Assembly: GCF_026586675.1 (NCBI RefSeq) | Contig: NZ_JAODIX010000089.1 | Location: forward strand, 1-37,648 | Origin: Halorubrum yunnanense | GTDB lineage: Archaea > Halobacteriota > Halobacteria > Halobacteriales > Haloferacaceae | Reading direction: 5' to 3' | DNA length: 37,648 bases | Notes under the pieces: generated by a model | Told to the model about the DNA's origin: nothing | The model's database searches: none | Seen by the model: the letters and a program-made list of their open reading frames with translations, nothing else | Position numbers and translations under genes: made by a program | Shown: positions 1,865 to 21,270 of the stretch, piece by piece | Numbering within the stretch: the stretch's first letter is position 1 | How the letters are laid out: each line of letters opens with the position of its first letter

Positions 1865-3430
1865 TTAGCAGAGAAGCAAGTACAACCAATACGGAAGCTG
1901 GATGATACTCTCACCGAGGTCCTCAATCGGTTGGCTACCTCGCACTGTGTCTCCCGCGAGGAGGAATCCAACCGGAGCATCATACGCCTTCTTGAATTCT
2001 CGAACAGCTTCAAGTGACTCCTCACGCTCGCGTGACTGATATGCTAGTCCAATCGGGACAGGAGTCCCATCTATCTCGAAGACGAAGTCGACTTCTCCGT
2101 CCCGTCCGCGCCAGTACTGAACGGACGGTGTCGCGTCGTTGCCCTGAGTGGCGTTAATCCCGTAGGCGAATCGCATCGTGTGGTCGAACGCTGCGACCCG
2201 AGCGAGGTCGGCTTCACGGTCAAAATCATTCCGGACTGTTGCGGCGTCCCCGTCAGCCAGTGCTGTTACCAGGCCCGTATCTCGGAGATAAAGGCGCACT
2301 GACCGGGGACGACTATTGTTATACTCAGTGACCCCAGTCAACAGGTACAGCTCTGCCAGCGCAGGGAGGTAGCTATCGGCGATCGTCCGCCGGTCGACGT
2401 CGAACAGTTCGACGAGCTCCTGATACCGGAACGGTTCAGTCCCTCTGTTTCGGGCAGCAAGCGCACAAAGCCGTTCAAGATCGGCAATCGTCTGAATCGA
2501 TTCGAAACCCGGAACCTCCTGATAGAGCGCGTCTCGAACGTCCTCTCGCAGTCGCGCGTAGTCATCCTCAGTCAGATCGGCCGCAGATACGGTGGCGCCG
2601 TCAAGATCATAGCTGATGGTGCCGCCCATCGCGAGGTAGTCGACAACCTGTGATTGGATGCGTCGTTCGACGGCTGCCACTTTTTCGTACTTTTGACGCA
2701 GTTCTGCGACGAGAGACTCGGTCTCCCCACTCTCGAGTGCCGCTGGGAGGCTGTTTTCCCCAATCCGGAGTGAGGTAGGGCTCACGCGAGTATCATCTTC
2801 CTCAAGGTCTGGATACAGCGTGAAGAGGTAGTCCCGGAATTTCTCGGGGAGAATCGGCTGGATGTCGTAGTCGTCATCCGGCATCCCGATGCTTTCGAAC
2901 TCCCGTTTGACTTGGATACCGGCACTGGCAGTCACGACGATGTGTCGACCTGGGACATCCTCGAGCAATTCCGCGACCGGGCCACCCCATCCGTCGATAG
3001 TCGGCTTGTTCGGATGTTCGATTTGGTGGACATCGTCGATCAGGATGAAGTGCGGGTGGTCTGCCTCGATGCGGCCCAGAATCCGACTTTCGTAGTACCG
3101 GACCACACGCCGCAGCTGTTCGTCGGACTGGAGTTGGTAAAGCGGGTCCGCGTCGAATGGAAGATAGAGGAATCGTTCCGGATCGTCGCCAGCCTCAATG
3201 CGCTGATGAATGAATTGGTGGAGGAGCGTTGTTTTCCCGGCGCCCCGTCGTCCCACGAGACCGAGCAGTGGTTGGTCCTCGAACTGGCTTCCGGACTCGT
3301 CGGGTCGGGCGAGATGATAGAAGTCGCTCTTCTGTCGTGCGGGGAGTGAGAATGCCTCTGTTCCACGCTCCCACCACGGATTATGGTCGTGAAGCGCCCG
3401 GACGAGAGCGTCACCGGCGTCGATAGCCAT
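1865..3430 (-). CDS. AAA ATPase with DUF4143-type C-terminal domain
   Basis: A 521-residue P-loop ATPase of the AAA_14/DUF4143 group, a widespread but poorly characterised archaeal family. Visible are Walker A GRRGAGKT (residues 60-67), Walker B FILIDD with a following His (about 128-136), and a winged-helix-like middle (RYQELVELFDVDRRTIADSYLPAL). The C-terminal region contains QYWRGRDGEVDFVFEIDG, the PD-(D/E)XK-like strand typical of DUF4143. The start is set at ATG 3430 (MAIDAGDAL); an upstream alternative start would add 17 residues of unlikely sequence. It is divergent from the vWA gene across a 318-bp spacer, so it may share control with that cluster or be an independent stress or defence gene. 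No specific role can be assigned. Confidence 0.8.
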   Translation of the reverse strand: MAIDAGDALVRALHDHNPWWERGTEAFSLPARQKSDFYHLARPDESGSQFEDQPLLGLVGRRGAGKTTLLHQFIHQRIEAGDDPERFLYLPFDADPLYQLQSDEQLRRVVRYYESRILGRIEADHPHFILIDDVHQIEHPNKPTIDGWGGPVAELLEDVPGRHIVVTASAGIQVKREFESIGMPDDDYDIQPILPEKFRDYLFTLYPDLEEDDTRVSPTSLRIGENSLPAALESGETESLVAELRQKYEKVAAVERRIQSQVVDYLAMGGTISYDLDGATVSAADLTEDDYARLREDVRDALYQEVPGFESIQTIADLERLCALAARNRGTEPFRYQELVELFDVDRRTIADSYLPALAELYLLTGVTEYNNSRPRSVRLYLRDTGLVTALADGDAATVRNDFDREADLARVAAFDHTMRFAYGINATQGNDATPSVQYWRGRDGEVDFVFEIDGTPVPIGLAYQSREREESLEAVREFKKAYDAPVGFLLAGDTVRGSQPIEDLGESIIQLPYWLYLLLC

Positions 3431-3748
3431 GGGTTTGTTGACTAACCCACGACTCCCTTCGCAATGATTGTTTCGACACAATACTCGACAGCATAGCGGC
3501 TATTTCCTTCAAACAATCTCTCCTTTAGAGTAGTATATTCTCTCAATAGCGATTTAAAGAACACTGTAGTGAGTCTTTTTTCTCTAATATCTGCTCTATC
3601 CTGCTTATTGGCGAAGCATTTATCACATCTTGTCTCATAATGGTGGGTGTGAAAGTAGGAAAAGACACATCGTAATGGTGGTTACTCTCCTCAGCGATCC
3701 GGGGCGAGCGTCCACGCTGTCGTCAACCACCCGTTGGCTGTCCGGGGT
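3431..3748. promoter_or_regulatory. Divergent intergenic region with direct repeats
   Basis: This 318-bp AT-rich spacer separates the minus-strand AAA ATPase gene from the plus-strand cluster. A TATA-like TTTATC lies near 3620, about 125 nt before the vWA start, so a leader may exist. The 9-mer TAATGGTGG occurs twice as a direct repeat (3638-3646 and 3673-3681, spacing 35 nt), a possible operator. No gene is seen. Confidence 0.4.
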
Positions 3749-5863
3749 ATGACAGACCACACAGACACCATGGATACGATGTACGCGGACATAGCAGACG
3801 GGCAACGTCATGACATCGCAGTCGAATTCATCACCCGGAGAGCTATCGACTGCGACGGAAAACAGGTCCACCGGTTGCTGGTAGCCGATCAATCTGGTCG
3901 GCAGTTCACGGTACTCGTCACGCCTGACAGTGAGACACTCCTCGACCTGAAAACTGGAGCAACCCACCACATTTCGGGGCTCCTGGGCGCTGCTCCCGTC
4001 TCCGCAGCAAGCGGTAGTAGGGATGAATGCCCTGACTGCGGGGGAGCGCTTCGACAAGGACAGACTGTCGACGCGGTTGGATCTGCCGCCACGCGGGCGG
4101 CATCACAGCTCTCTCTCGAGGAGTCATTCGGAATCATCGATGCCGAGGCGACTATCCGTCGGGTTCGTGACGACCGGTCGCTCGTCGATGACTGGACGTC
4201 GATGGACAACGACGAGACGATTTCCCCACCCGACTACATATGTGAGTCCTGTGGGCGCCACGTCGACGCGTACGAACTTCGGGAGCCCGCTGAGGACGAT
4301 CGGATTCTCGAAAACCAGGTGATGGAGAGCGTATCTCAGGCACCGGCAAGCGCAAACTCTGCGAGTCAGGAGACAGTTGGACTCGCCGCTGGTGGGGCGA
4401 AAGACGTGGCCAACTTTCGGGAGAACCTCGCAAACGGGTATACGCCACAGCCGGAGGCGATCAGCGACGAGGGACTATTCTACGATTACCATTTCGAGAC
4501 AGGCACGCGGACCGAATCGGACGCCTTGTTCGCGCCGCGCTACGCGACCGCTGTGACCGATCACCCACTCAGTGGAGAGACTGAACGCTACCTATCGGTT
4601 GGACTGGATTCGACCCTCTCGGTTGATGAGTTCGAGCGGCCACGGCTGGATCTCGTCGCCGTCCTTGACGTCTCTGGGTCGATGGACAGCTCTTTCGACG
4701 CGTACTACTACGACGAACACGGGCACAAGCGCGAGGCTGAGGACGGCGCGGCAACAAAACTGGACGCGGCGACGCAGTCGCTGTGCGCGCTTACCGAGCA
4801 GCTCCACGACGAGGACCGGCTGGGCGTCGTCCTGTACAACCACCGCGCCCACGTCGCGAAGTCACTCCGCGATGTCGGAACCACGGACATGCCAGCGATA
4901 CGTCGCCATATCCGGGAGGTCGCTGCTGGCGGCAGTACGAATCTTGAGGACGGGTTCGAGGCAGCTGTCGATATGCTGGTCGACGGAGCGTCTGGACCGA
5001 ACGTTGAGCGTCGTGTCGTCTTCATGACCGACATGATGCCAAACACGGGGGCGACGGGAGAGAGCGAACTCACCCAGCTGTTCGCGGAGGCGGCTGTCGA
5101 GGGAGTTCACACGACGTTCATCGGCATGGGGTTAGACGCGAACGCGGAGCTCGCCGACACCTTGTCTGGCATTCGCGGAGCGAACCACTATTTCATCCAC
5201 TCGGCCACGGAGTTCGAGCGCCGGCTTGGTGAAGAGTTCGACTACATGGTCACTCCATTGGTGTATGACCTGAACCTCGATCTCGACGCAGATGGCTACG
5301 AGATCGAGGCGGTTCACGGCTCACCGTCTGCGGACGCCGCAACTGATCGCCTGATGCACGTCGGAACGCTGTTCCCTTCCACCAAACAGGATGGCGAGGC
5401 TCGCGGCGGCGTCATCCTCGTTCGCCTCAAACAGATGCGCTCAGACGCGGATCTCGATCTGGTCGCCTCATGGACGGAACGAGATGGTGGTGAGTACACT
5501 GAGCGGGTCACCGTCGACGTTCCCAACGAGTCTGATACGTACGCGCACAATGGCGTCCGAAAGGCTGTCGCCCTGGCGAGGTACGCTCGCGAACTCCGAA
5601 CGTGGGCAGCGGATCTCCACGACCGGGCCGATAACACGACTGGCGTCGACGACTGGTTTCTCACCGATCACCGCGGCGAGCACGAGCGCACGTCTGTGCC
5701 GCTGGTTGTTCCCGAGCGATATGCCGAGCGGTTCGACCAGCTTCGGCGTTACCTCGTAGACGAGATGGACACTGTCGGTGATGGGACGATGGAACAGGAG
5801 GTGGAACTCCTAGACCAGCTGTGCCAGCAGGCTCCCGCGACGTCAAATGAGGTGAGCGATTGA
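3749..5863 (+). CDS. von Willebrand A domain protein with split zinc ribbon
   Basis: A 704-residue protein, the first gene of the plus-strand cluster. Residues about 20-85 are beta-rich and could be a small OB-like or sandwich domain. Two CxxC pairs follow, CPDCGG (94-97) and CESCGR (165-168), forming a split zinc ribbon interrupted by about 65 residues. A vWA domain runs from about 298 to 480, with an intact MIDAS motif DVSGSM near 307 and the later threonine in AGGSTNLEDG. The C-terminal part is beta- then helix-rich. vWA proteins act as metal-dependent scaffolds, often with ATPases or in stress systems. The start is ATG 3749; a TTG 15 nt upstream is less likely. The stop overlaps the next start by 1 nt (TGATG), indicating translational coupling. 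Function within the cluster is unknown. Confidence 0.8.
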   Translation: MTDHTDTMDTMYADIADGQRHDIAVEFITRRAIDCDGKQVHRLLVADQSGRQFTVLVTPDSETLLDLKTGATHHISGLLGAAPVSAASGSRDECPDCGGALRQGQTVDAVGSAATRAASQLSLEESFGIIDAEATIRRVRDDRSLVDDWTSMDNDETISPPDYICESCGRHVDAYELREPAEDDRILENQVMESVSQAPASANSASQETVGLAAGGAKDVANFRENLANGYTPQPEAISDEGLFYDYHFETGTRTESDALFAPRYATAVTDHPLSGETERYLSVGLDSTLSVDEFERPRLDLVAVLDVSGSMDSSFDAYYYDEHGHKREAEDGAATKLDAATQSLCALTEQLHDEDRLGVVLYNHRAHVAKSLRDVGTTDMPAIRRHIREVAAGGSTNLEDGFEAAVDMLVDGASGPNVERRVVFMTDMMPNTGATGESELTQLFAEAAVEGVHTTFIGMGLDANAELADTLSGIRGANHYFIHSATEFERRLGEEFDYMVTPLVYDLNLDLDADGYEIEAVHGSPSADAATDRLMHVGTLFPSTKQDGEARGGVILVRLKQMRSDADLDLVASWTERDGGEYTERVTVDVPNESDTYAHNGVRKAVALARYARELRTWAADLHDRADNTTGVDDWFLTDHRGEHERTSVPLVVPERYAERFDQLRRYLVDEMDTVGDGTMEQEVELLDQLCQQAPATSNEVSD

Positions 5864-7638
5864 TGCTCGTGTTCGCGTTTGACCGTGACTGGACTGTTGA
5901 CGTGAATCCACATCCCCGCCAAGACGCCGTGCCGTTGGAGTGGGTGCGTCATCTCGCTCATGAGACGCCCCATGCGGTCTACGCCATTGGGAATCAAACG
6001 CTGGCTGAGGAGGCCGCAATACCGGGTGTTGTCGATATCGTCGGCCGCCATCGTGATGAGTGGGACGAGTGGATCGGCGAGAAGCAACCCACTGGTCGGT
6101 ATGAGCGGTTTCCGCTCCGTCGCGAGCGCCTGGCACTCATCGCCGATCTACACCCAGACGCGGTCGACTACATCGTCGTCGACGACCTTGATCTGAATGA
6201 CGTCGACGGGTGGGAGCACTATCACGCCTGGGAGTTCGTGCCGGCAGTCAAACAGGGCCAGATTCACCCAGACCTGCCGTGGGCTCGTGATCTCGAGGCT
6301 GACGGTGGGCTCCCAACCTCAGCCGGAATTATGCCGGCGGATGCGTCGTCGCTATCGTCGTTCCTCGACGAGCATGCCGATGCGGTTGGGTTTGAGATTA
6401 CGTACTTGGATGATGGTGTTGAGCGGACACGGCTGTGCCATACTGTTTCCATGGATGCCGTGGCACTCGAACGACCGTCCGCAGCGCCGGCGCTCCAGTG
6501 TACCCCGCTTGCGCCCGGTGATGACCAGTTCACTGTCCCCGTCGATAAAATTGAGCTGCTCTCTGTGGTTTTTCCCCTGCCGAGTTTGTACACCGCCGGC
6601 GGAGACACCCCTGCTGAGGAGGCAGTAGGACTCCGTCGCTTGGCCAATACACAGCCGGAGGAAGTCCGTATTTCATCGCTTCTCACGCTTTTGGACCGGG
6701 ACGACGGTGACATACGCCAGGATGAGAATGCGCTCCGAGCCCTGCGTCAGGTGGCCAAGGTTCGCCCCGCGGATTGTACGCCAGCAATTCCGATCCTCCA
6801 GACGCTATTGGATGATGGAGACCACCCCGCCCGGGCCGACATGTTAGCTACCCTCCGGACAATTGGGGATACCGATCCAGGGGCAATTGCTCCGCTCGCT
6901 GACGACCTCGTACCATGTCTCGATTCGAATATTGTTTCCATCCGACGGGAAGCAACCAGGTGCGTTGCTACAATCGCCGCTGAATACCCTGACGACGTGG
7001 TGGACGCGGTTCCGACACTCACAACGATCATTGAAGACGAGGCTGACGCACTGCCGTATGCGGTGTACGCACTGTCACGGATCACGCGCGAATATCCGGA
7101 CGCGGTGAAACCTGCTGCTGACTCACTCGGAGACGTCATCCTCGATGATTCGCTGTCCGACACCATCCGATTGAATGCGACTGCTGGACTCGGTCGCGTC
7201 GTTGGTGAATATCCGAGCATTGCCGTCGATATTGTCGACGATGTCGCGACCCTGCTTTCCGCTGAAGATCGCCAACTCCGAAATAACGCAATCGCGCTGA
7301 TTGGCGACGTAGCGATCATCCACAGCGATGTCGTTGAGCCGTATACGGAGGAGATATCTGAATTGTTGACCGTCGACGACACGTACACACGCGTCAACGC
7401 AAGTGGTGCGCTTAGCCGGGTTGCTGAAGACTTCCCGGACTCGGTTGCGAACGTCACGCCGACGTTTATCGAACTGCTGTCGGATGACGACCCACGGGTC
7501 CGTGAGAACGCCTGCTGGGCGCTCGGTTACCTTGCTGCTCAAGACGCGACTTCCACGCTAAAAGACCGTGCGCATGGCGACGAAAATGCTGATGTCCGCA
7601 CGAGGGCCTCCTGGGCTCTTGACCAGATCAACGGATGA
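5863..7638 (+). CDS. HAD-like N-terminal domain fused to HEAT repeats
   Basis: A 591-residue protein starting at ATG 5863, inside the stop codon of the vWA gene. The N-terminus reads LVFAFDRDWTVD, a DxDxT-type HAD phosphatase motif I. AIGNQTL resembles motif II, and VVDDLDLNDVDGW near residue 105 provides the acidic motif IV. This suggests a HAD-type phosphohydrolase or a degenerate relative. Residues about 250-590 are HEAT/armadillo-like helical repeats of 35-45 residues (for example SIRREATRCVATIAAEYPDD, RVRENACWALGYLAAQ), normally a protein-protein or nucleic-acid binding solenoid. The linker (about 130-250) is unassigned. It is likely a partner of the vWA protein. The HEAT assignment is solid, the HAD assignment moderate. 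Confidence 0.7.
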   Translation: MLVFAFDRDWTVDVNPHPRQDAVPLEWVRHLAHETPHAVYAIGNQTLAEEAAIPGVVDIVGRHRDEWDEWIGEKQPTGRYERFPLRRERLALIADLHPDAVDYIVVDDLDLNDVDGWEHYHAWEFVPAVKQGQIHPDLPWARDLEADGGLPTSAGIMPADASSLSSFLDEHADAVGFEITYLDDGVERTRLCHTVSMDAVALERPSAAPALQCTPLAPGDDQFTVPVDKIELLSVVFPLPSLYTAGGDTPAEEAVGLRRLANTQPEEVRISSLLTLLDRDDGDIRQDENALRALRQVAKVRPADCTPAIPILQTLLDDGDHPARADMLATLRTIGDTDPGAIAPLADDLVPCLDSNIVSIRREATRCVATIAAEYPDDVVDAVPTLTTIIEDEADALPYAVYALSRITREYPDAVKPAADSLGDVILDDSLSDTIRLNATAGLGRVVGEYPSIAVDIVDDVATLLSAEDRQLRNNAIALIGDVAIIHSDVVEPYTEEISELLTVDDTYTRVNASGALSRVAEDFPDSVANVTPTFIELLSDDDPRVRENACWALGYLAAQDATSTLKDRAHGDENADVRTRASWALDQING

Positions 7639-7723: not shown

Positions 7724-9574
7724 ATGACAATTGAGCAAAGCGCCGAGGGATGTCTCCTCGGGTTGGCCTGTGGTGACGCACTCGGCCGACCAGTTGAATT
7801 CAACAGCGCCGCGGAGATCGAATCCAAGCATGGCGACGTGACGGAAATGCTTGGCCACGGCACGCATGGCCAGCCACCGGGCACGATCACTGACGACACT
7901 GAGATGGCGCTTTGTATCGCGGAGAGTCTCGCCGATCGACGTGGGTTTGACCCAGACGACGTGGCGAGTCGATTCGTCGAGTGGCTGGAGTCTCGCCCAT
8001 TCGATATCGGAATGATGACGCGTGATTCCCTGTCCCGGATCAGAGAAGGAGCGTCTTGGGACGAGGCTGGTGCTGACGTCTGGGAATCGCGGCCGGAAGG
8101 ATCCAACGCCGGCAATGGGAGCGTAATGCGGTGTGCGCCGTACGCGATCGCCTTTCGGAACTTCGACGCAGAACTCACTCAGGTCAGTCAGTTTTCGTCG
8201 ACGATTACACATGCCGACCCGCGCTGCCGGTGGGGTTGTGTGATTCTGAACCGAACGCTCGCAAACCTCATTCGTAACGAACGCGACCCGCTCAGGACCG
8301 CGCTCAAGAATACCGCTTCAGCTCCAGACGAACTTCGAACGGCACTCACGCACGTACAAGACGTCATCACTGGCGACCGCGATGCGGCACCGTTTGAATC
8401 CCAACTTGCGACCTCTGGGTACGTCGTCGATTCACTCCAGGCTGGACTCTTCTACGGGTTAACCGCCGAATCCGCCGAATCCGCGATCGTTCAAGCAGTG
8501 AACAGTGGTGGCGACACCGACACTGTCGGTGCGATCGCAGGCGTTGTGGCTGGCGCCCGATTTGGGACGTCCGGTATCCCGAACCGATGGGCAAAAGAAA
8601 TCGAGGAATCTGACCGCCTCAAGCGACTAGCACAGCGGTTGTTGACGATCCGGATGCCGATTCCTGGGAAGCGATGTACGACGATGGATGACGGGACGAT
8701 CGTCTTCAGGGAACGCACAATCGAGGGGCCTGCGTACATTTCCGCTGGTGAATTCCAAGAGGCAACTATTGGACACCGTCCGCATCCGGCGCCACATCGC
8801 AGTATCGGAACTGCGTATCACGAGCTGACACCAGCGACAGCGGCGATGCTTGACTGGGAACGGCGAGCGTATGCGATCCACAGTGGTCGTACTTCCACCT
8901 ATGCCGTCCCACAGATCGATCTTGATGAGAAGTTAGATCCTTCTCAGCCGGCTCTTGTCCCTGTCCCACAGTATCCGTTCGTCGACGCCTTCGATGACCT
9001 CCCCGAGCAAGACCAGCAACGAATCAAGCGTGACGGACATGCGGCAGGGAATGCGTTCGTTCAAGCGTATTCGGCGTTCGCAGGAATTCGACAGTCGATA
9101 ACCGAAGGCGAGACTGAGACGGTTGGCATCGAACGAATGGACCCGATTGCGGGGGCGACGCGGGTCTTGGTTGGTGCGTTCGCCGACGCCGGTGAGGCGT
9201 TGTTGCGACGTAACGAGATCGGTGGCTACGACTCACCAGCGGAAATCGAAGCAGCCTACGATGTCTCAGTTGCTGAAGAGATCATTGCTGCCCACCCGGA
9301 TGCTGTCTACGAGGTGGCCGAGATATTCCTGCAATTAGCGAGCGGGACGGGGGCTATTCTGGATTACATCACACATCTTCGGCTCCCGCAGGAGCAACAG
9401 CCAGTGAGGGACACCAGTCCAGAGGATCAACTAGCGGGCCTTCGTGATACCGCTCACACGATGGTCGGCGAACTCTACGTCATGCATGAATCGCTTCGAC
9501 GCGTAGCGGTCCGGCACCCGGAGATTGAGTACGAGCAATGGCAAGCCAGCAGCGCTCCGCCTGGAGGTCGGTGA
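7724..9574 (+). CDS. ADP-ribosylglycohydrolase (DraG family) with long C-terminal extension
   Basis: A 616-residue protein. Residues 1-320 are a DraG/ARH-type hydrolase, which removes ADP-ribose from proteins or nucleic acids, or cleaves ADP-ribose derivatives, using two Mg ions. Metal-site motifs are intact: GDALGRPVEF (17-26), TDDTEM (56-61) and GGDTDTVGAIAG (about 262-273). Residues about 330-616 are an uncharacterised, partly helical extension not found in minimal DraG proteins (about 290-340 residues). The gene begins 85 nt after the HAD-HEAT gene, and TTATGTG about 25 nt upstream is a weak TATA candidate, so it may have its own promoter. The CARF-like gene follows after 3 nt. The context suggests processing of an ADP-ribosylated target or an ADP-ribose-derived signal; that is inference. 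Confidence 0.85.
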   Translation: MTIEQSAEGCLLGLACGDALGRPVEFNSAAEIESKHGDVTEMLGHGTHGQPPGTITDDTEMALCIAESLADRRGFDPDDVASRFVEWLESRPFDIGMMTRDSLSRIREGASWDEAGADVWESRPEGSNAGNGSVMRCAPYAIAFRNFDAELTQVSQFSSTITHADPRCRWGCVILNRTLANLIRNERDPLRTALKNTASAPDELRTALTHVQDVITGDRDAAPFESQLATSGYVVDSLQAGLFYGLTAESAESAIVQAVNSGGDTDTVGAIAGVVAGARFGTSGIPNRWAKEIEESDRLKRLAQRLLTIRMPIPGKRCTTMDDGTIVFRERTIEGPAYISAGEFQEATIGHRPHPAPHRSIGTAYHELTPATAAMLDWERRAYAIHSGRTSTYAVPQIDLDEKLDPSQPALVPVPQYPFVDAFDDLPEQDQQRIKRDGHAAGNAFVQAYSAFAGIRQSITEGETETVGIERMDPIAGATRVLVGAFADAGEALLRRNEIGGYDSPAEIEAAYDVSVAEEIIAAHPDAVYEVAEIFLQLASGTGAILDYITHLRLPQEQQPVRDTSPEDQLAGLRDTAHTMVGELYVMHESLRRVAVRHPEIEYEQWQASSAPPGGR

Positions 9575-9577
9575 GCA

Positions 9578-10051
9578 ATGGTGGATGCGTGGCTCACTAC
9601 AATGAGCACGAACCTGGAGGCAGTCATCAACCCGCTGATTGCGGCCTGTGAAGAGGGATTTCGCCCCGACGAACTGTACGTGCTAGAGAATCCCGGAGTC
9701 GGCGACCAGTTTGACGATATTACGTCGATGATGGAGCGTGTGGTCGTGGAATACGGTGGTGAGGAGCCCAACCTCTCCGTGACTCACCTCGAAACAGAGA
9801 CGGACTTCCAGGGGATCGTCGAGCACTTTCGTGAACCAATCGCTCAGATACAGGCCGATGGGGGTACGGCAGCGGTTGACGTTACCCCCGGTCGGAAGTT
9901 TATGTCGGCGATCGCGTTCCAAGCAGGGATTCAGTTTGAGGCCGACCACGTCTTCTATCTCTACGTTTCGAACAACCGGTTCTACGGTCGATTGTACCCC
10001 GATGTTCCCAGACCAGTGGTCGACCTCGTTGACTTCCAGGAGGTCTTCTAA
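9578..10051 (+). CDS. Stand-alone CARF-like (CRISPR-associated Rossmann fold) protein
   Basis: A 157-residue protein that I read as a single CARF-like domain. The N-terminus has the first strand and ligand loop WLTTMSTNLEAV, followed by a helix and the strand PDELYVLENP (30-39). The C-terminal half has the signature DVTPGRKFMSAIAF (101-114), equivalent to the D-(V/I)-T-G-G-T-K-x-M motif of CARF proteins, then ADHVFYLYV. CARF domains bind cyclic oligoadenylates or related nucleotides and normally switch on a fused effector. Here no effector is fused: a PIN-like nuclease gene overlaps the stop codon by 1 nt (TAATG). A ribosome site GGAGGT lies 9 nt before ATG 9578. No cas10, cas gene or array is visible. 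The change from GGT to PGR may mean a different ligand. Confidence 0.65.
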   Translation: MVDAWLTTMSTNLEAVINPLIAACEEGFRPDELYVLENPGVGDQFDDITSMMERVVVEYGGEEPNLSVTHLETETDFQGIVEHFREPIAQIQADGGTAAVDVTPGRKFMSAIAFQAGIQFEADHVFYLYVSNNRFYGRLYPDVPRPVVDLVDFQEVF

Positions 10052-11094
10052 TGAAGCTTGCTCGTCACCACATCACGCATCTCCTCAACGCGCTATACAC
10101 GGACGGAGTTACCTCGGTTAATGTCCAGCACCCGTGTGAGGAAATTGGAGAGATCCTCGAGATCGATCTCTCCGATCCTGTCGCAACCACGGTCCGATTC
10201 ACGCAAGGGGCGCTCACATACCAAGATTCCCGCGAGGAAATCCACACGACATATGGTGAACAGGCCTACGAAGACCTGCCTGACAAGGATACATACATTC
10301 GAGCGCTCGTTGCTGGGGGCCTTGTCGACATCGAAAATCGCGAGGACGTGGCGACGTTCTTCCGCCGGCAGGGGTATCCCGACCTAGACGCTGGCCATCA
10401 GCCCGTGGCCTTGGGCATTGATACGAATCTCCTTGCGTGGCGGATGCCGGATGTACTCCAACTGGATCCGGAGCGATACAGTGACGACAACGGACGGAGT
10501 CCAGTCAATGGCTTCGCTCTCGCGACGGGTATCTACGAGGAACTCAATTGGCATTACAACCACTACGAGACACGGGCTCTCGAGGATGCGTTCGGGCCCG
10601 AATTCGCACGGTTAGACAATCAGCCAGCAGGAGCGAATCGTGAAGGATTCCTCGGGCTCTACGAATATCGACATCTTCGCGATCAGCGGTACGCGGATAC
10701 GATTGAGAGTGAAACGGGCGACGAAGCGATTGTCGACGCCTATGCTGAGTACGATCAGGATAGTCGAAAGCAAGTTGTTCTCCTCAGCAACGACTACGGG
10801 TTTGTTGATCTGGCTCGCGAGGCCGGAGTCCTTGCTCACCACGTGAGTTTCCCGGTTGACATCCCACGGAAGGTGACCGTAACTTGGGACGAACTCCAGG
10901 ACGTGCTCTATACGCTCTCGGTGCTGTTCGGCGTGTTGCGACTCCCAAAGGTAACACTGTACGGAGTGTGGAACGGCAAATCCGGGGAGGATTGGCAACG
11001 AAAGCGGCTGGATGTCGATTGCCGAAGCGAGAACGTTCGTGAGAAACTGCGACGTGATCGCGCACTCACAACCGAATATGAGGCGACGAGATGA
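10051..11094 (+). CDS. PIN-like ribonuclease, candidate effector
   Basis: A 347-residue protein translated from ATG 10051, overlapping the CARF-like gene, with GGAGGT at 10039-10044. Residues 1-115 form an uncharacterised alpha/beta domain. Residues about 118-270 look like a PIN nuclease: ALGIDTNLLAWRM (catalytic D124), the helix GIYEELNWHY (E163 or E164), GDEAIVDAYAEY (D224/E225, D229) and VVLLSNDYGFVDLA (D248, D253). PIN enzymes cut RNA with Mg or Mn and are common toxins. The C-terminal 80 residues are unassigned. The one-base overlap with a CARF-like gene suggests a split sensor-effector pair equivalent to fused CARF-PIN proteins. Nuclease activity and RNA as substrate are inferred. Confidence 0.68.
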   Translation: MKLARHHITHLLNALYTDGVTSVNVQHPCEEIGEILEIDLSDPVATTVRFTQGALTYQDSREEIHTTYGEQAYEDLPDKDTYIRALVAGGLVDIENREDVATFFRRQGYPDLDAGHQPVALGIDTNLLAWRMPDVLQLDPERYSDDNGRSPVNGFALATGIYEELNWHYNHYETRALEDAFGPEFARLDNQPAGANREGFLGLYEYRHLRDQRYADTIESETGDEAIVDAYAEYDQDSRKQVVLLSNDYGFVDLAREAGVLAHHVSFPVDIPRKVTVTWDELQDVLYTLSVLFGVLRLPKVTLYGVWNGKSGEDWQRKRLDVDCRSENVREKLRRDRALTTEYEATR

Positions 11095-11147: not shown

Positions 11148-14100
11148 GTGTCAGAAACACGTTCTCTATTCTCTGGTCCTGATCCAGATCTGGTTACTGA
11201 TAGAGCACTCACGTGGGCTGCCAATACTGCGGGTGAACACCCAGAAAGCATTCTTTGTCTCACTCAGTCCCGGGAGCGCGCAAATGCCCTCCAGCAGCGT
11301 TGGCGAGAGGATCACAACGAGATTCAGTTCTCTTGTACGACGCTCGACGATTACGTGAGTGAACTGTACGAGCGCGCGACGGGAAATCTCGCGAATAGCA
11401 CGCTCAGTCGTGTCCAACGGTTTCGGCTTGTCGAGGCAGCCATCGAACAGTACGGCGAGTGCGTAGCTGATGGTCCGTTCGCAGGGATCGAATCCCCCGC
11501 GAACGATCTTATCGACCAAGTACAGGGGCTGTTTTCGCTCTTGGAATACGCGGGCTACGATAATCCAGACGCAATTGAAGACGCACTACAGGCTGCCGGT
11601 GCGGCTGGGAGCGAGTCAGTCGACGCCGCTGAACTCTATGGTTCGTTCAGAGAGGCTGACCCGTCCATCGCAGACAGCAGCCTCACGGAGCAAGCAACCG
11701 CATTCTCTGGGCTATACGCCGAATATGAACGCCTCCGAAGTGAGCTACACTCCGACTGGCAGGGCGTCGTTGCGGAGCAGTATCTCACGCTCCTTGACAA
11801 TGACCAGCTGCTCACGACGGTTCCGGAGTCGGTTGATGCCATCATTCTTGATGAACTCACGCGTCTGGCACCCGCTGAACGAGAGGCTGTCGCCCGTCTC
11901 TCACGGGCATATCCCACCGTCGCAACGCTTGCGCTCACACATGAGTCATGGAACGGTGTCGGCGTCGACTCAGGTCTAGAACGGGCGCTCGATGTCTACC
12001 AGGCATTAGATTTCGAACTGGAATACCAGACGCCGAGCTACACCAATGAGGATCGGTTGGCGGCAGTGCGGAGTCTCTACGATCATACCGCGGAGACACC
12101 CTCGTATCGTGACGAGGATGTCGGTCTGACGTTCACTGAACCCGCAACAGAACGTGACGAGGTCCGAGCCACGGCTCGCCGAATTCGGAGCTTGCTGGAT
12201 GATGGTGTCGACCCGGCGGACATCGGTGTCGTCGTTACCGACCGGGCGACGTATCGAGGGATCCTGTCTGAGGTCTTTTTGACGTACGACATCCCCTTCA
12301 CCTTCGTCAACGAGATTGGTATCGAGCAGACCCTGGTCGGCGGCGCGGTGGAGGCACTGCTCGATCTAACCGACGAAGAGGCACAGACGAGTAGTCTTCT
12401 GGACCTCGCCTCGAATCGCCTCGTCACACTTGACGCGTTCAGTATTGATCCTGACGCGCTGTCGGATACCGCCGCGAAGGCGCCTGATCAGACGCTCGAC
12501 CGTCTTCTCGAAACGTTAGAGAAGGACGACCACACGGCGACTGCCGACGGCATTCGCGACCTGATCACAACAGTCAATCCCAGCGAGGGTGGACTTGCCG
12601 AATTCACGTCACGACTTGAGGACGTTCTGGAGAGACTCGCTGTCGAGGACGCTGTCGACACGTACGCTCCATCCGACGAGGCGAGTGGCTCGCACCGCCC
12701 TGCGTACGAACAATCCGCTTGGAGCGCTGTTGAGCGCGTTCTCTCGTCGTTCGACGCCGTCGCTCCATATCTCACCGACCAACAGCCTGCGCGACGTGTT
12801 CGTCGCGCGTTGCTCGCTGAACTCGTCAGGGGGCCCCGCCAACAGCAGGGGTACGTTCGGGTGTATCCAATTGCGGAAGCCGAGATGGCCTCGTTCGACC
12901 ATCTCTTCACACTCGGATTGACGATGGGCTACTTCCCGAGTGAGTCCGACACGATGGCGTTCTTCGAGGCAGTGAATAACGCTGACGAGGAATTCAGCCG
13001 CGAACATTCCGGTCGACGCGCACGATACATCCTCGGAACGCTGCTCACCGGCTCAAACCGGGTTACCCTCTCTATTCCGCAACACACTGTCGAGGGTACC
13101 GAACACGTCTCAGCGCCCGTCATCTCCGAACTCGAGCGCTACGTCGAAAGAACCGATACCGAAGACGGTGACGAGGAACTCCCGCATGTCGTCAGTGAAG
13201 ACATTCAACAGTCCTACAGGAGATGGGCAGTCCGTGAATCGTTCGAAACACCGGAGCGGGCGACCGAACCGCTCACAACTGCCGACGGGGTGACAGCCGA
13301 CTCTCGCGCGTTTGCGAAGCAGGGGATAACCTGTTCGTGGCGTCGATCGCGCCCCGGTGTGACCGACCATGAGGCGCAGCTCGGAGAGATCGTCGATACC
13401 GTGTTCCCCGAAGATCGGAGAGAACCGTTCAGCCCGAGCGCACTGGATGACTACGCCCGCTGTCCGTTTGTTTTCCTGATGAAGCGCGTCCTCGGCTACG
13501 AAGAGGACTACGGGGACGAGGCAGGAATCACTCGTGCCGACCGCGGCACCTATGTCCACGGCGTACTGGCGGCCTTCTATCGACGGCTCCGAACAGGAGA
13601 TGACCAACCGGTCGACCTCACTACGTTCGAGCGCGAAACACTGGAGTCGACACTACTCGATGTCGCACTCGACCATCTTGCCGACATTGGCGAAGTGGAA
13701 ACTCCATTCGAGCGCAGAACTATCGGCCGATTGCTCGCTGGACTGGGTGACCCAGCCCAAAATCCGTATCATGGATGTGGTGGCGAAGCAATGGGGGGCC
13801 TGTTCGCCCGCTTCCTCGACACAGAGCTTGAACGCCAGGCCGACGTGGCGACGCAGCCGACGTACTTCGAGGGAGCCATCGACATCGATTATGACGACGT
13901 CGAGATTCTCTCCGAAGATCCGGTGATGATCGATACGCCAGATGGACCGGTGGACGTCCGGGGAATCGCAGATCGCATCGACAAGACAGGTCGCACGCCC
14001 TACCGATTCCACATCCGTGATTACAAGACCGGGAGTACGCCAGGGCGATCCGACATCACCGGTGGAACCAAACTCCAGCTCCCGCTGTACGGACTCGCCT

Positions 14101-14561
14101 TCGAGACAGCCCTCGAAGCACGGACTGGCGACCCCCACGAGGTCGTCGCCGGATCATACTACAAGCTCAAATCTCCCGACGATATTGACCCAATAGCTGG
14201 AGAACTGACCTCGAGAGAGGCTGTGGATACTGACTCGCCCCCACTGGCACCGCCACTGTCCCAGTCTTGGCGGCTCCCATTCGAGACTCGGGCGGAATTC
14301 TCTCGGTTCATCCGCGATGTCACACCCACCCGCGTCGGACGGATCGGGACTGCTATCGAGAACGGTGCGTTCCAACCGACCCTCCTCTCAGAGAATCACG
14401 CGAACTGCGAGAACTGTACATTCCGACACAGCTGTGACGTGCGGCATCACCACCAGCGTGACACTATCGAGGAACTTGATGGCCGCGAGCATTACATCTC
14501 CGAACGAGCCCGAAACGAGGACCTGGATCTGGATGCCTACCCTGACGGGGGTGATGTCTGA
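11148..14561 (+). CDS. AddB/RexB-like Fe-S PD-(D/E)XK nuclease, helicase-like part degenerate
   Basis: A 1137-residue protein starting at GTG 11148. The N-terminal two thirds follows the AddB/RecC inactive-helicase layout: the place of the P-loop reads LFSGPDPDLVTDRA with no GKT, while a DEL remnant of Walker B (IILDELTRL) and helicase-like folds remain. The C-terminus has a cluster-ligated nuclease: first Cys in FSPSALDDYARCPF (about 760-773), GTYVHGVLAAFYRRL (about 801), DVRGIADRIDK, the catalytic IRDYKTGS (about 956), QLPLYGLAFE, and the last three Cys in CENCTFRHSC (about 1087-1096). AddAB complexes resect double-strand breaks and destroy linear foreign DNA. The stop overlaps the AddA-like start by 1 nt, supporting one heterodimer. 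It starts 53 nt after the PIN gene, so cotranscription is likely. Confidence 0.85.
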   Translation: MSETRSLFSGPDPDLVTDRALTWAANTAGEHPESILCLTQSRERANALQQRWREDHNEIQFSCTTLDDYVSELYERATGNLANSTLSRVQRFRLVEAAIEQYGECVADGPFAGIESPANDLIDQVQGLFSLLEYAGYDNPDAIEDALQAAGAAGSESVDAAELYGSFREADPSIADSSLTEQATAFSGLYAEYERLRSELHSDWQGVVAEQYLTLLDNDQLLTTVPESVDAIILDELTRLAPAEREAVARLSRAYPTVATLALTHESWNGVGVDSGLERALDVYQALDFELEYQTPSYTNEDRLAAVRSLYDHTAETPSYRDEDVGLTFTEPATERDEVRATARRIRSLLDDGVDPADIGVVVTDRATYRGILSEVFLTYDIPFTFVNEIGIEQTLVGGAVEALLDLTDEEAQTSSLLDLASNRLVTLDAFSIDPDALSDTAAKAPDQTLDRLLETLEKDDHTATADGIRDLITTVNPSEGGLAEFTSRLEDVLERLAVEDAVDTYAPSDEASGSHRPAYEQSAWSAVERVLSSFDAVAPYLTDQQPARRVRRALLAELVRGPRQQQGYVRVYPIAEAEMASFDHLFTLGLTMGYFPSESDTMAFFEAVNNADEEFSREHSGRRARYILGTLLTGSNRVTLSIPQHTVEGTEHVSAPVISELERYVERTDTEDGDEELPHVVSEDIQQSYRRWAVRESFETPERATEPLTTADGVTADSRAFAKQGITCSWRRSRPGVTDHEAQLGEIVDTVFPEDRREPFSPSALDDYARCPFVFLMKRVLGYEEDYGDEAGITRADRGTYVHGVLAAFYRRLRTGDDQPVDLTTFERETLESTLLDVALDHLADIGEVETPFERRTIGRLLAGLGDPAQNPYHGCGGEAMGGLFARFLDTELERQADVATQPTYFEGAIDIDYDDVEILSEDPVMIDTPDGPVDVRGIADRIDKTGRTPYRFHIRDYKTGSTPGRSDITGGTKLQLPLYGLAFETALEARTGDPHEVVAGSYYKLKSPDDIDPIAGELTSREAVDTDSPPLAPPLSQSWRLPFETRAEFSRFIRDVTPTRVGRIGTAIENGAFQPTLLSENHANCENCTFRHSCDVRHHHQRDTIEELDGREHYISERARNEDLDLDAYPDGGDV

Positions 14562-17500
14562 TGGTTGACTTCGAGCAGCTTGAGGACGCACAACGGCGAG
14601 CTGTTCTCGCTTACGACCGGAATTACGCGGTAACTGCCGGTGCGGGGAGTGGGAAAACGACGACGTTCGCCGCGCGGTATCTACAGTTGCTTGAACGCAC
14701 AGAGACCGACCCGCACTCGATAGCTGCCATTACGTTCACCGAGAGCGGGGCGATGGAACTCCAAGAGCGTGTTCGAGAGTCCGTCAGTGACCGGCTCGCG
14801 ACCGTCGATGGCGAAACCTACGAAGAGTGGCGTGAGTACCACGACACGCTCCCCGAGGCGTACATCCACACGATTCATGGATTCTGTGCCAGACTCCTGC
14901 GTGAGTATGCGCTTGAGGCCGACGTTCCGGTCGGCTTTGATGTCATTGAGGAGACGGCTGCTACTGGACAACAGCAGGATACGGTCGAGCGATTCATCGA
15001 CCAGCATCTCGAGGACGACCGGCTGGAACTCCTCACAGACATCTACTACCGCGACCGGCTTGAGGAGTTGTTGGCTGACCTTCTCCGTGAGCACCACCAG
15101 GCTCGCAATTGGGCCGACACGTGGGCGGACGCGACGCCTGGCGACTACGTCGAGTACGTCGGTGAGCGGTACTGCGCTATTGACATCGACGCTGCGCGAC
15201 GACACTTGGGGAGTGACGAGATCAGGGTCGCCCTCGAGGATATTTCTCACGTCGCGTCGAGTGAGTCTGCGGGTAGCGAACGCATCGGGATCGCTCAGAA
15301 CGTCGCGAGCGGGGTAGAGGCATACGGGCTCAACACCGAAGCGATGGACGACATCACGATTCACGATGCAATGGCAACCATCTGTGAGGCGCTAACGAGC
15401 GACGGCACAGCGTATCGCGGTAGCTTCGACGCGTGGTCTTACTCCGGACATGACGATTGGGATGATGAGAATGCGCGCCGATACGAGAAGGGCACGACTA
15501 CGCTAGTGGAACGGTTGCCCGTTGAGTCGTGGGCGACATCCGATAGACTCGGTGTAGACCACAACGCCGCACAGTACTACGTCGCTCTCGCATCGCTCTA
15601 CCAGGATCTTCACGACACGTATCAGCAGCGCAAGCGTCGTGAGACGGCACTGGACTTTGCTGATCTGATTGACGCAGCGATTGACCTCCTTGAGTCAAAC
15701 GAGGCGATTCGGGACTCCCTTCGTGACTCGTTTGACTATGTGATGCTCGACGAGGTACAGGACACGGACCCACGGCAATGGGAGCTGGTGCAGTTGCTCA
15801 CCTGGCTGGATGGCGACTACGACAAGTGTAATGTCTTCGTTGTGGGCGACGAAAAACAGAGCATCTTCCGATTCCGGGGCGCCGATGTGGCCCAGTTTAG
15901 CCGCGAACGTCAGCGTCTCGAGACTGCGAACGAGACACAAGAACTCTCCCCACTCGAAGACATCCATCCGGTCGACGGTGACGGGGGCCTTGACCGGAAT
16001 TTCCGATCGGTACCGGCTGTTCTCGAACCCATCAACGACCTATTTGACGAGCTCTTCGGCGTCATTCCGTCTGCGTACCAGGACGCCCCCACCGGAATCC
16101 GGTCGGATGACACGAGTTTCGAGCCGTCGGCCCAGCGTCTAACGCCCGACCGTGATGATAGTGCGGGCCTCAGCACCGGCGCTAGTTTCGTCGTGGTGCC
16201 GGAAGAAGCAGACACTCGCGAGAACGTCCTCCCCGACGGTCATACACTCCGAGATCTCCCGGCGGACGACACCGAACTCGACACGCGGGCCTTGGCCGCT
16301 GAAGTCGCGGCGGTACTCGATGACGACACGCAACGCTACGAGACAGTCGGCTTCGAAGACGGCGAACCAGTCGAGGAGCCAACGTCACTCGAGCCATCGG
16401 ACGTTGCGATACTGCTCCGTAAACGGACTCACCTGAAAGAGTACGAGCGTGCGCTCGCGGCGTTGAATATCCCCTACACTGTCGCCTCAGGGATTGGCTT
16501 CTACGATAGCACTGAGATCGTCGCACTCCGAAACCTGTTCCGAGTGCTTTCGGATCCGAGCGACGACTTGGCGCTGTACAGCCTGTTGCGATCGCCATTG
16601 TTCGGATTCGAGGACTCGCGCGTCGTCTCACTCTGGACGGGTATCGACCGGGACCAAGTCGGGGAGGGAGAACTTTGGGACGCACTCGCGTCGACCGATG
16701 ATGAACAATTAACGGCTGCTCAAGAGAACATCCAGCGGTGGCGGGCCCTCGCCGGTGCTACGGATGGAGAGACCGTCGTTGAGACGTGGGACGCACTCCT
16801 TGGTCGAATCATTGCGGATACGGGCTTCATCGCAAGTCTCGCGACGGACGAACGCGGCCAGCAGGCCGTCGCGAACGTCGAGAAGTTCCGAGCACGGCTT
16901 CGGGGCTGGAGTGAAGATGGACTCCAGACGCTGCCGGCTGTGGTTGACCGGATCGAGCGGGAGGTTGAGCTGTCGACGCGGGAGGGAGAAGCCGAGGTCT
17001 CAGAAGACGCCGATGGGGTTCGGATAATGACTATTCACGACGCGAAAGGTCAGGAGTTCCCCGCAGTATTCGTTCCAGGGCTATCGAAGGACTTCAACCT
17101 CAAAGTCGGCTATGGGGAAGGTATCGCCGAGTTCGAGACCATCGAAAACTCAGCTGGTGATGGACGGACACCGCTCCTTGGCATTCGCGGTCCTGGTGTC
17201 GAGGACGGCTTTGCGCAGGAGGATACTATCTTGAAGCGGCGGTTAAAATTCGCCCGCAAGCGTGAAGCTATCGCTGAGGAGAAACGGATCCTCTACGTCG
17301 CGATGACGCGCGCTCGCGACCACCTGTATCTCGTCGGAACGGCGTCCGCTGACGATGGATCAATGGCGAGCCTTGAGACGGGTGACGCAGATGATCCCTC
17401 GAACTGGTACGATTTCCTTGGGTCGCTACTCGTCGACGATACGGCGACAGACGCACTCGACGCCGATAGTGAATTTGCTTGGCACGGGGAATCTGAGGTT

Positions 17501-18307
17501 CCGCTCACGATTCGTCTTCCGCGAATCGAACACCAACTTACCAGTGGGGAGGACCGCGAAGCGCCCCCACTGTCAATCGATATTCCAGAACTTGAGTCGG
17601 AGCCGGAATACAGTATTCCCGCATCGTATCTGGGGTCGCTCATTCAGGACGGCGCACCAGGCGACATCGTCGTCGACCACTCAGGGAGACACGTCTCCTA
17701 CGTTCCAGCAGACGAACGGGATGAAGAGAGTTCTGAGGAGGACTCTTCTCCAGAGTATCTGCCACGGGCCGTGTTCGGTAGCACGCTCCACAAAGCCGTA
17801 GAGCTGGAAATTGAGCCGGATAACGCGGAGAGACTTCGGGAGTTATTTGAGCAATTTGCCGTCCAAGCTGACGTTTCACTCGACCGCATTGGCGAAAGCG
17901 ATCTGTCCGAACTAAAGCGTCATCTTCGTGTGGCACGCGACTATCTGGACGATCTCGACGCACCAATAGCGACTGACGAACGGCGGGTTCATGCGACGCT
18001 CGAAGACGGTGAGACGTACGGGGATATCGACCATCTCATCGTTACCGATGACGCGTACCATATTGTCGACTACAAGACGAACAAGATTACCGACGAGGCG
18101 TCCATCGACGAGAAAGCTCAGCACTACAAGTGGCAGATGCTCGCGTACGCAGTCGCGCTACACCAGAATGATTCTACGCGAGATGTGAAGGCGACATTGC
18201 TGTTCACAGAGGTTGAGGAGGCCCGAACGTTTTCATGGACCTCAGAGGAGCTTTACAGAGAAGGAGATCGTCTGAACGAATACATTTGTAACGAATTAGA
18301 GATCTAA
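14561..18307 (+). CDS. AddA-like UvrD-family helicase-nuclease
   Basis: A 1248-residue superfamily 1A helicase with a C-terminal nuclease. Helicase motifs are intact: Q-motif Gln in DAQRRAV (11), Walker A GAGSGKT (27-33), HTIHGFCA, DEVQDTD (397-403), GDEKQSIFRFRGAD (429-442), NFRS, IMTIHDAKGQEFP and LYVAMTRARDHLYLVG. The C-terminal PD-(D/E)XK domain has GSTLHKAVE, GDIDHLIV, the catalytic HIVDYKTNK (about 1166) and QMLAYAVAL. The architecture matches bacterial AddA (about 1230 residues). ATG 14561 lies within the AddB-like stop (TGATG). With the AddB-like partner it should form a DNA-end unwinding and degrading machine. It is the last gene of the plus-strand cluster. The standard archaeal end-resection enzymes are Mre11-Rad50/HerA-NurA, so this pair probably reflects transfer and a specialised role. 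Confidence 0.9.
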   Translation: MVDFEQLEDAQRRAVLAYDRNYAVTAGAGSGKTTTFAARYLQLLERTETDPHSIAAITFTESGAMELQERVRESVSDRLATVDGETYEEWREYHDTLPEAYIHTIHGFCARLLREYALEADVPVGFDVIEETAATGQQQDTVERFIDQHLEDDRLELLTDIYYRDRLEELLADLLREHHQARNWADTWADATPGDYVEYVGERYCAIDIDAARRHLGSDEIRVALEDISHVASSESAGSERIGIAQNVASGVEAYGLNTEAMDDITIHDAMATICEALTSDGTAYRGSFDAWSYSGHDDWDDENARRYEKGTTTLVERLPVESWATSDRLGVDHNAAQYYVALASLYQDLHDTYQQRKRRETALDFADLIDAAIDLLESNEAIRDSLRDSFDYVMLDEVQDTDPRQWELVQLLTWLDGDYDKCNVFVVGDEKQSIFRFRGADVAQFSRERQRLETANETQELSPLEDIHPVDGDGGLDRNFRSVPAVLEPINDLFDELFGVIPSAYQDAPTGIRSDDTSFEPSAQRLTPDRDDSAGLSTGASFVVVPEEADTRENVLPDGHTLRDLPADDTELDTRALAAEVAAVLDDDTQRYETVGFEDGEPVEEPTSLEPSDVAILLRKRTHLKEYERALAALNIPYTVASGIGFYDSTEIVALRNLFRVLSDPSDDLALYSLLRSPLFGFEDSRVVSLWTGIDRDQVGEGELWDALASTDDEQLTAAQENIQRWRALAGATDGETVVETWDALLGRIIADTGFIASLATDERGQQAVANVEKFRARLRGWSEDGLQTLPAVVDRIEREVELSTREGEAEVSEDADGVRIMTIHDAKGQEFPAVFVPGLSKDFNLKVGYGEGIAEFETIENSAGDGRTPLLGIRGPGVEDGFAQEDTILKRRLKFARKREAIAEEKRILYVAMTRARDHLYLVGTASADDGSMASLETGDADDPSNWYDFLGSLLVDDTATDALDADSEFAWHGESEVPLTIRLPRIEHQLTSGEDREAPPLSIDIPELESEPEYSIPASYLGSLIQDGAPGDIVVDHSGRHVSYVPADERDEESSEEDSSPEYLPRAVFGSTLHKAVELEIEPDNAERLRELFEQFAVQADVSLDRIGESDLSELKRHLRVARDYLDDLDAPIATDERRVHATLEDGETYGDIDHLIVTDDAYHIVDYKTNKITDEASIDEKAQHYKWQMLAYAVALHQNDSTRDVKATLLFTEVEEARTFSWTSEELYREGDRLNEYICNELEI

Positions 18308-18489: not shown

Positions 18490-18566
18490 TCATTTCTCAA
18501 AACTAACTATCGGCCTTTCTAACTGTATTGATTACTATTATACATTTGTTGAGAGTGTATCATAGT

Positions 18567-19751
18567 ATGCCTGATAATTTGGACACGGCATATGTGAATC
18601 ACACCTCCTCCACATCAGTCCATCAAGACGTGCTTGCGGATCTGTATGAGAGGCGGTGGGTTGGTATCCACTACGGGGATATTCCAAGCCTCAATAAAGA
18701 GGAATGGAAATCTGACCATGGCTATACCACTGGTGGAAACGCGGTCGGTCGATTGTGCGACTATGCTGAAGAAGGAAAGATTCTCTCAGCATCATATACC
18801 GGCCATCCTGATCTTGATGGCGGCCGTCTTGTGGGTACTATTGGTGCTTCTGATGAGAATGAGGACGACGATGTGCTACTGATTGTTTGCCGTAACAAGA
18901 GAGTAGAGGGGCAAGAACGCGGTGTTGTAGATTATCTCCGTGTGAAACCTGGTGCCGACATATCAGAGGTCGAAGCTGAAGTCGGCGGCCTGACCACTGA
19001 AGCTGAGCAAGTTGTTAGAGAAGCAATTGGGAACGATGGATTTGATGAAGATGATCCAGACTATCGAATACTCAAGGGGCTGGAATTCAACGATGAGGTA
19101 GAGTGGGTGTGGAATCGGGACTTTCCCGGACTGTGGGCGGCAAATAAACGACAGACAATCGCAGGATGGAACACTGGGAAATCACACCTCTATGCTGCTT
19201 ATTATGCTGCTTGTGAATCCAAAATCGACGACATGCGAGAGGTGAAAGACAAACTCCCTGACGATGAGAATGACGATAACATAGAAGATGTTGGGTTACT
19301 ATCTGAAGGTCAATTAGAAGTCTTGTGTAGCCAATACTTACGGCGAAAACACACGGAATATTTTGAAACATTACCTGTCGGGGGATCACTTTCTGGGGTT
19401 GATATCGTCGCGAGATCAGAAGAAAACGAGATCTTGGCTCAAGTTACCTTCACTGAAGATGTCGAGGAGAAACTCCGGCGGTTGTTATCCTACGCAGACC
19501 ATAGTACAACTGATCAGAATGTCAGATTCTACTTTTTCGGGCCTAGAAAAGGAAAAGAGGGGCTTGGCGAATCGATTGCGGGGTATCCAATCGAGGACAT
19601 CTACATGCCAATTAAGGACGTGTACGATAAATTTGAATCTGATGACTCTACTATAGTGGACTCATCGACCGAACAGGTAGCCCCGACGTCGATATTGGAC
19701 CAACTCCTGAACGTTGATCTTTCCGATGACAATCCTCCAAGTTTTGATTGA
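18567..19751 (+). CDS. Uncharacterised protein with restriction-endonuclease-like C-terminal region
   Basis: A 394-residue protein from ATG 18567 (MPDNLDTAY); upstream starts add unlikely sequence. Residues about 10-230 contain YTTGGNAVGRLCDYAEEGKI and a WNRDFPGLWAANKR segment and are not recognised. Residues about 255-345 resemble an Mrr/PD-(D/E)XK-like fold: LSEGQLEVLCSQYLRRK, then GGSLSGVDIVARSEENEI and LAQVTF. The Asp is present, but the usual E/QxK is Q-V-T, so the site may be altered or inactive. Base composition is clearly more AT-rich than the preceding cluster, suggesting separate acquisition. It is followed by two hairpins at 19754-19809. It could belong to a type IV-like restriction or defence function, but this is weak. 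Confidence 0.55.
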   Translation: MPDNLDTAYVNHTSSTSVHQDVLADLYERRWVGIHYGDIPSLNKEEWKSDHGYTTGGNAVGRLCDYAEEGKILSASYTGHPDLDGGRLVGTIGASDENEDDDVLLIVCRNKRVEGQERGVVDYLRVKPGADISEVEAEVGGLTTEAEQVVREAIGNDGFDEDDPDYRILKGLEFNDEVEWVWNRDFPGLWAANKRQTIAGWNTGKSHLYAAYYAACESKIDDMREVKDKLPDDENDDNIEDVGLLSEGQLEVLCSQYLRRKHTEYFETLPVGGSLSGVDIVARSEENEILAQVTFTEDVEEKLRRLLSYADHSTTDQNVRFYFFGPRKGKEGLGESIAGYPIEDIYMPIKDVYDKFESDDSTIVDSSTEQVAPTSILDQLLNVDLSDDNPPSFD

Positions 19752-20360: not shown

Positions 20361-20407
20361 GTAGGCCGCTAAATCAAAGGAGTTGAAGCGGGAAGATTCG
20401 GTTGCCT

Positions 20408-21240: not shown

Positions 21241-21270
21241 CTCTACGCCTTACAGCGATTCAACACAGCC
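21241..21270. repeat. Right terminal inverted repeat of the IS5-type element
   Basis: The reverse complement starts GGCTGTGTTGAATCGC. It contributes the stop codon that ends the truncated selO frame (21260). Confidence 0.85.

Follow-up and report, generated by a model that had tools for sequence, protein, structure and literature searches.

The contig NZ_JAODIX010000089.1 of Halorubrum yunnanense, analyzed over its 37,648 nucleotides (hereafter, the window), carries a gene for an ADP-ribosylglycohydrolase of the DraG family with a long C-terminal extension. It forms part of a haloarchaeal defence cassette, apparently mobile, that is composed of an AAA_14 ATPase encoded on the opposite strand, a vWA protein, a HEAT-repeat protein, DraG, a stand-alone CARF protein and a PIN-domain nuclease. 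DraG is encoded by a single open frame on the forward strand (7724-9574, stop included; 616 residues), and the ATG of the CARF gene follows at 9578, 3 nucleotides past its end; position 9577, given as the end of the gene in the preliminary description, takes in this gap. The catalytic domain (residues 1-300; 7724-8623, forward strand) was delimited with PF03747 and an alignment to DraG of Rhodospirillum rubrum. The match to PF03747 spans residues 9-288 and the entire profile (positions 1-287 of 287; E-value = 3.8e-79; 266.8 bits against a cut-off of 26.2). T56-D57-D58, D94, H163 and D264-x-D266-T267, which correspond to the metal-binding and catalytic residues of DraG, are all present in the alignment to the R. 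rubrum enzyme (2woc/2woe). Both the domain score and these residues place the protein in the DraG/ARH family, and the full domain with every aligned metal-binding and catalytic residue kept suggests that the protein is probably an active ADP-ribosyl hydrolase, as had been proposed from its intact metal-binding motifs.

The whole catalytic domain and its key residues are thus shared with DraG (2woc), but the haloarchaeal protein has about 310 additional C-terminal residues, no DraT or nitrogenase context was seen, and its score with the model of the dinitrogenase-reductase-activating equivalog, TIGR02662, is below the cut-off (198.7 versus 337.05 bits). With the Tri1 immunity ADP-ribosylarginine hydrolase (NF041672, 6dre) it has the hydrolase family in common, but it scores 158 bits against a cut-off of 490, and no gene for a cognate transferase toxin was seen. 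The catalytic core is under purifying selection, with a ratio of non-synonymous to synonymous substitution rates (dN/dS) of about 0.12-0.14.

The C-terminal extension, or tail (8636-9571, forward strand), lies outside the DraG profile, as had been noted, although it starts near residue 305 rather than 330 and comprises about 310 rather than 280 residues (approximately 305-616). Its conserved N-terminal part (RTIEGPAYI, GHRPHPAPHR, DWERRAYA) is followed by a helix-rich part, and the motifs RTIEGPxYI, GHRPxPAP, DWxRRAY and RHPE are shared within a family of 10 homologues. Since the tail is conserved across these homologues and is under purifying selection (dN/dS of about 0.16-0.19, somewhat looser than for the core), the sequences identify it as a genuine part of the protein. 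Judged by sequence, it is unlike any described family: none of the 10 homologues has a Pfam match within it, and a search of the PDB found no counterpart among solved structures. Structure prediction failed because too few homologues were available as input: the predicted local distance difference test score (pLDDT) was 41 for the full protein, and the mean was 47 for the tail alone, which gave a helical model of low confidence. A fold search retrieved generic helical bundles only (best E-value 0.035) and was not used. The tail was detected in 15 of 391 haloarchaeal genomes, representing 13 of 86 genera (two of the matches are weak), and is present in four plasmid records; it was not found in viral contigs, and phage DraGs align to the core only.

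Upstream of DraG, the AAA_14/DUF4143 ATPase (1865-3481, reverse strand; PF13173, E-value = 1.3e-12; PF13635, E-value = 1.1e-13) is oriented divergently from the rest of the cassette. It stands beside vWA in most of the loci that have vWA, and its sequence identity among close cassettes is 81-92%. The vWA protein (3734-5863, forward strand; PF00092, E-value = 8e-14) combines zinc-ribbon cysteines with an intact metal-ion-dependent adhesion site (MIDAS); the MIDAS residues D312-S314-S316, T402 and D433, as well as C99, C102, C170 and C173, are kept over 33 homologues. In the HEAT-repeat protein (5860-7638, forward strand; HEAT_2, E-value = 3.5e-18), the N-terminal part has HAD-phosphatase-like motifs (DRDWTVD at the start and VVDDLDL later), which recur in 16 of the 18 homologues aligned; the remaining two are truncated. 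This part matched neither a profile nor a structure, and because the assignment to HAD comes from the motifs, we treat it as putative.

Downstream of DraG, the neighbour previously described as CARF-like is a true CARF protein (9578-10051, forward strand) of the clade CARF_m1, matching the PADLOC model PDLC01972 with an E-value of 7.3e-65 and containing the motif T103-P-G-R-K-F-M-S conserved over 39 homologues. The stop of its gene overlaps the start of the PIN gene (10051-11094, forward strand), whose product is matched by the PIN part of PDLC01973, a model of the CARF_PIN fusion (E-value = 5.9e-32). PF13638 is matched weakly, under the cut-off (E-value = 0.0012), and residues D124, N126, E164 and D248 are invariant over 40 homologues. 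The two proteins therefore correspond to the halves of a known CARF-PIN fusion. They belong to the PADLOC CARF_m1/CARF-PIN clade, in which fused forms occur at two of our comparison loci (L083, L084), but here they are encoded by separate genes, and searches of the genomes that bear them detected no protein of type III CRISPR systems.

None of the 41 genomes bearing the CARF had a match to the RAMP family PF03787, which was detected in control genomes, and the Cas10 palm domain PF22335 was found in two of 391 haloarchaeal genomes, neither of which bears the CARF, although divergent relatives could escape both searches. The pair has the sensor and the nuclease of an ancillary CARF effector of type III CRISPR, but no Cas10/RAMP partner was detected, so the CARF probably senses something other than a type III cyclic oligoadenylate. 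Likewise, no SMODS synthase was detected in the genome of the window, with the same reservation about divergent synthases. In some records this CARF is automatically annotated as a CRISPR-associated ring nuclease; with the Crn1 ring nuclease model NF040581, the protein of the window scores 14.7 bits against a cut-off of 125.

The complete order AAA_14, vWA, HEAT, DraG, CARF and PIN is retained in three further genomes (G109, G126, G371) and in Halorientalis persicus. The six-gene set recurs in several other genera, and partial versions occur in further ones: Halobaculum halobium (G340) retains DraG, CARF and PIN alone, and in G134 the contig stops after CARF. The tailed DraGs linked to CARF share about 80-88% identity with that of the window, and their sequences identify them as copies of one recently spread cassette. 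In locus L090, the six-gene order is kept with proteins only about 49-67% identical and a tail-less DraG. Cassettes are located in defence islands and on plasmids, with BREX and DISARM genes nearby. The HAD-like HEAT gene pairs with DraG in two arrangements, either upstream or downstream of it; the latter is seen with tail-less DraGs outside the vWA cassette clade (L030, L149, L181, L192). In five related loci (L142, L144, L134, L088, L024) DraG is adjoined by a calcineurin-like phosphoesterase (PF12850, E-value = 6e-24). A protein family roughly 497 residues long, matching neither Pfam nor PHROG (L135:7603-9093, L134:8913-10406), recurs beside DraG, HEAT or CARF, and adjoins DraG in L023, L067, L088 and L144 as well.

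How closely DraG, its tail and CARF are tied together was assessed from distances computed from the search matches listed, so that the DraG figures hold among these matches; gene calls in the comparison loci were mechanical. In 19 of the 148 DraG loci listed, a CARF_m1 gene is no more than 10 kb away; random placement would give about 0.3 such loci, and the proposed linkage is hence well above chance. Part of the excess must stem from the gathering of genes in defence islands in general, and the link is real but loose. The same-strand order DraG-CARF-PIN is also found with divergent proteins, twice in G265 (spacing of 122-125 nucleotides, tail-less DraG) and once in G235 (181 nucleotides). Seen from the other side, the 62 CARF loci divide into 43 without and 19 with a detected DraG at a distance of up to 10 kb. 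The expectation that the tail goes together with CARF was not borne out: 13 of the 19 CARF-linked DraGs are tail-less, and tailed DraGs without CARF occur in four divergent cases (G336, G081, G139, G264) and in Haloglomus irregulare. The refuting condition named in the preliminary description thus yields a divided answer: intact extended DraGs do stand beside CARF in most copies, which are near-identical representatives of one spreading cassette, but not in most lineages. In the phylogenetic tree, the tailed group is nested within a larger DraG clade, the support of which (SH-aLRT 92) was not starred. The members of this clade that have no tail, L090, L182, L067, L088, L142 and L144, already stand beside CARF, vWA, HEAT, phosphoesterase or the 497-residue protein. 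Three changes are needed on the tree to explain tail presence, compared to 10 for vWA linkage and 11 for CARF linkage, and the tree rejects the tail as a marker of CARF linkage. As far as the sequences tell, the tail arose once or a few times, within a clade whose tail-less sisters already adjoined CARF, vWA and phosphatase genes. The tail and the CARF link are thus separable.

CARF and PIN are also full length where DraG is broken: the DraG of L026 has a large internal deletion, that of L061 is interrupted, and only remnants are left in Haloplanus rubicundus (L101). Constraint is much stronger on CARF than on DraG (dN/dS of 0.03 versus 0.14). Several other genes were observed next to CARF-PIN. 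In Halomontanus rarus (L098, 13129-18108), the tailed DraG is separated from CARF-PIN by a DUF4011/REase_MTES_1575 helicase-nuclease. On the Haloferax alexandrinus plasmid pBNX82-4 (L203, 7289-8474), a gene for 216 residues annotated as csa3, a CARF regulator, directly precedes CARF-PIN, and a gene of equal length occupies the same place in L062 and L063.

In the window, PIN is followed by an AddB-like nuclease (11148-14561, forward strand; PF12705) and an AddA-like helicase-nuclease (14561-18307, forward strand; PF00580, E-value = 1.5e-55), both recurrent island neighbours. AddA/AddB-like enzymes recur beside CARF-PIN in varied orientations (L018, L019, L020, L073, L074, L081, L087, L138, L202), mostly with low identity, and in L202 no DraG was seen nearby. 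They were rejected as part of the cassette core, the copies beside the cassette elsewhere being 33-39% identical and in other orientations. A protein of 407 residues (18528-19751) has no Pfam match and a weak similarity to ZorD1/Mrr-like nucleases (PADLOC, E-value = 1.5e-4); it may be a nuclease of restriction type belonging to this island. The right edge of the island is probably marked by a DDE transposase (20402-21238), the gene of the SelO protein adenylyltransferase (21260-22450) and the housekeeping genes (POR beta, SufB) after it.

The company of DraG matches that of the bacterial ADP-ribosylglycohydrolase (ARG)-centric systems, which are predicted to reverse viral ADP-ribosylation and combine an ARG with a vWA chaperone, a calcineurin-like or HAD phosphatase and a nuclease, but with no transferase (PMC9503650, section 3.8). 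Haloviruses with suitable enzymes do exist: an ADP-ribosyltransferase is annotated in the haloarchaeal tailed viruses HVTV-1 and HCTV-5 (PMC8651126) and a sirtuin in Haloferax virus Halfgib1 (PMC9503650). On these two grounds, we tentatively favour the view that the locus is a haloarchaeal counter-modification cassette with DraG as its enzymatic core, to which CARF-PIN would be attached as a semi-independent arm for abortive defence. In an infected cell, host macromolecules would be tagged by an ADP-ribosyltransferase of viral or other foreign origin; the vWA protein, through metal-dependent binding, and the DraG tail may recruit the tagged targets, from which DraG would strip ADP-ribose. The released ADP-ribose might then be processed by the HAD-like HEAT protein or, in relatives, by the calcineurin-like phosphoesterase. 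CARF-PIN would act as a ligand-triggered RNase, linked to the DraG arm by a putative signal if by any, and would halt the cell if repair fails. The intact catalytic residues of DraG and PIN, the intact MIDAS, the recurrent gene order across genera and the location in defence islands and on plasmids all support this proposal.

Compared with the ARG-centric systems (PMC9503650), the likeness extends to the absence of a linked transferase (a scan of the genes between about 0.1 and 26.8 kb of the window recognized no ADP-ribosyltransferase or sirtuin), to vWA in the place of the predicted peptide-binding chaperone, to the nuclease neighbours and to modular, fast-changing gene content. For the phosphatase, which is coupled in a little over 55% of the bacterial systems, the counterpart is putative: the HAD-like motifs of the HEAT protein, which no profile supports, and the calcineurin-like enzyme, which is seen in relatives only. 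However, those systems were described from bacterial lineages and frequently include a Nudix or WYL repressor (a Nudix or WYL factor is found in over 42%) and a rhodanese phosphatase, whereas the cassette is haloarchaeal, combines DraG with HEAT and AAA_14 proteins and with CARF-PIN as a further arm, and has an uncharacterized DraG tail. Because the Nudix or WYL regulator of many bacterial systems was not seen in the window, the cassette would be best regarded as an archaeal variant rather than a plain member. Several points weigh against the proposal. The scanned genes of the window include no recognized Nudix or WYL transcription factor, most haloarchaeal DraGs sit outside such a setting, and defence islands gather unrelated systems, so that co-location alone is no proof of one pathway. 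Substrate, activity and antiviral effect are predictions from the genes, and, with such low pLDDT values, the role given to the tail is a guess. A genome-wide search for transferases with PF01129 matched no control genome and is uninformative.

Alternatively, DraG and CARF-PIN might be unrelated defence modules travelling together in an island, the 3-nucleotide gap reflecting one recently spread transcription unit. We consider this possible, if rather unlikely: CARF-PIN is a near-obligate pair by itself and mostly lacks a nearby DraG, tailed DraGs exist without CARF, a helicase separates the two in Halomontanus rarus and the selective constraints differ, but the recurrence of the DraG-CARF-PIN order with divergent proteins and in the tailed clade argues for a connection. 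The preliminary description, whose observations were confirmed and whose interpretation found partial support, had suggested that ADP-ribose is involved in the ligand of CARF or its target, with DraG as an off-switch or as an editor of NAD-derived signals; in this view, the ligand would contain ADP-ribose or be derived from it, and DraG would destroy or edit it to turn CARF-PIN off. The tight spacing, the enrichment of DraG near CARF_m1 and the lack of detected Cas10, RAMP and SMODS proteins, which leaves room for a different ligand, are in line with this idea. Yet it has no direct support and appears improbable, given the many DraG-free CARF loci, the CARF-free tailed DraGs and the intact CARF-PIN beside broken DraGs, because a toxic nuclease without its off-switch should not readily persist. 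Moreover, DraG-type enzymes are known to cleave ADP-ribose glycosidic bonds and are not known to cleave oligonucleotides.

The CARF domain of RtcR is able to sense tRNA fragments (PMC7790460). By analogy, CARF of the cassette might sense fragments of RNA or tRNA that end in a cyclic phosphate and are produced by PIN or other RNases, while DraG would contribute to this RNA-damage response by taking ADP-ribose off the ends of RNA. The lack of detected type III CRISPR in the hosts and the phosphoesterase and HAD-like partners, suited to end processing, would fit, but neither an RNA ligase nor a KptA-like enzyme was seen in the cassette, and we regard this scenario as very unlikely. There is an equally slim chance that the cassette is a single CRISPR-free signalling system, in which DraG and its tail would release or make an ADP-ribose-derived signal from tagged targets, CARF would sense it and PIN would kill the cell; if so, the CARF ligand would lie outside the oligoadenylate pathway.

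Under the counter-modification proposal, an archaeal defence cassette would be built around an ADP-ribose hydrolase, beside a CARF-nuclease pair residing in genomes where type III CRISPR was not detected. Two questions can thereby be tested directly: whether archaea possess defences dedicated to countering ADP-ribosylation by viruses, and which ligand is sensed by a CRISPR-independent CARF.
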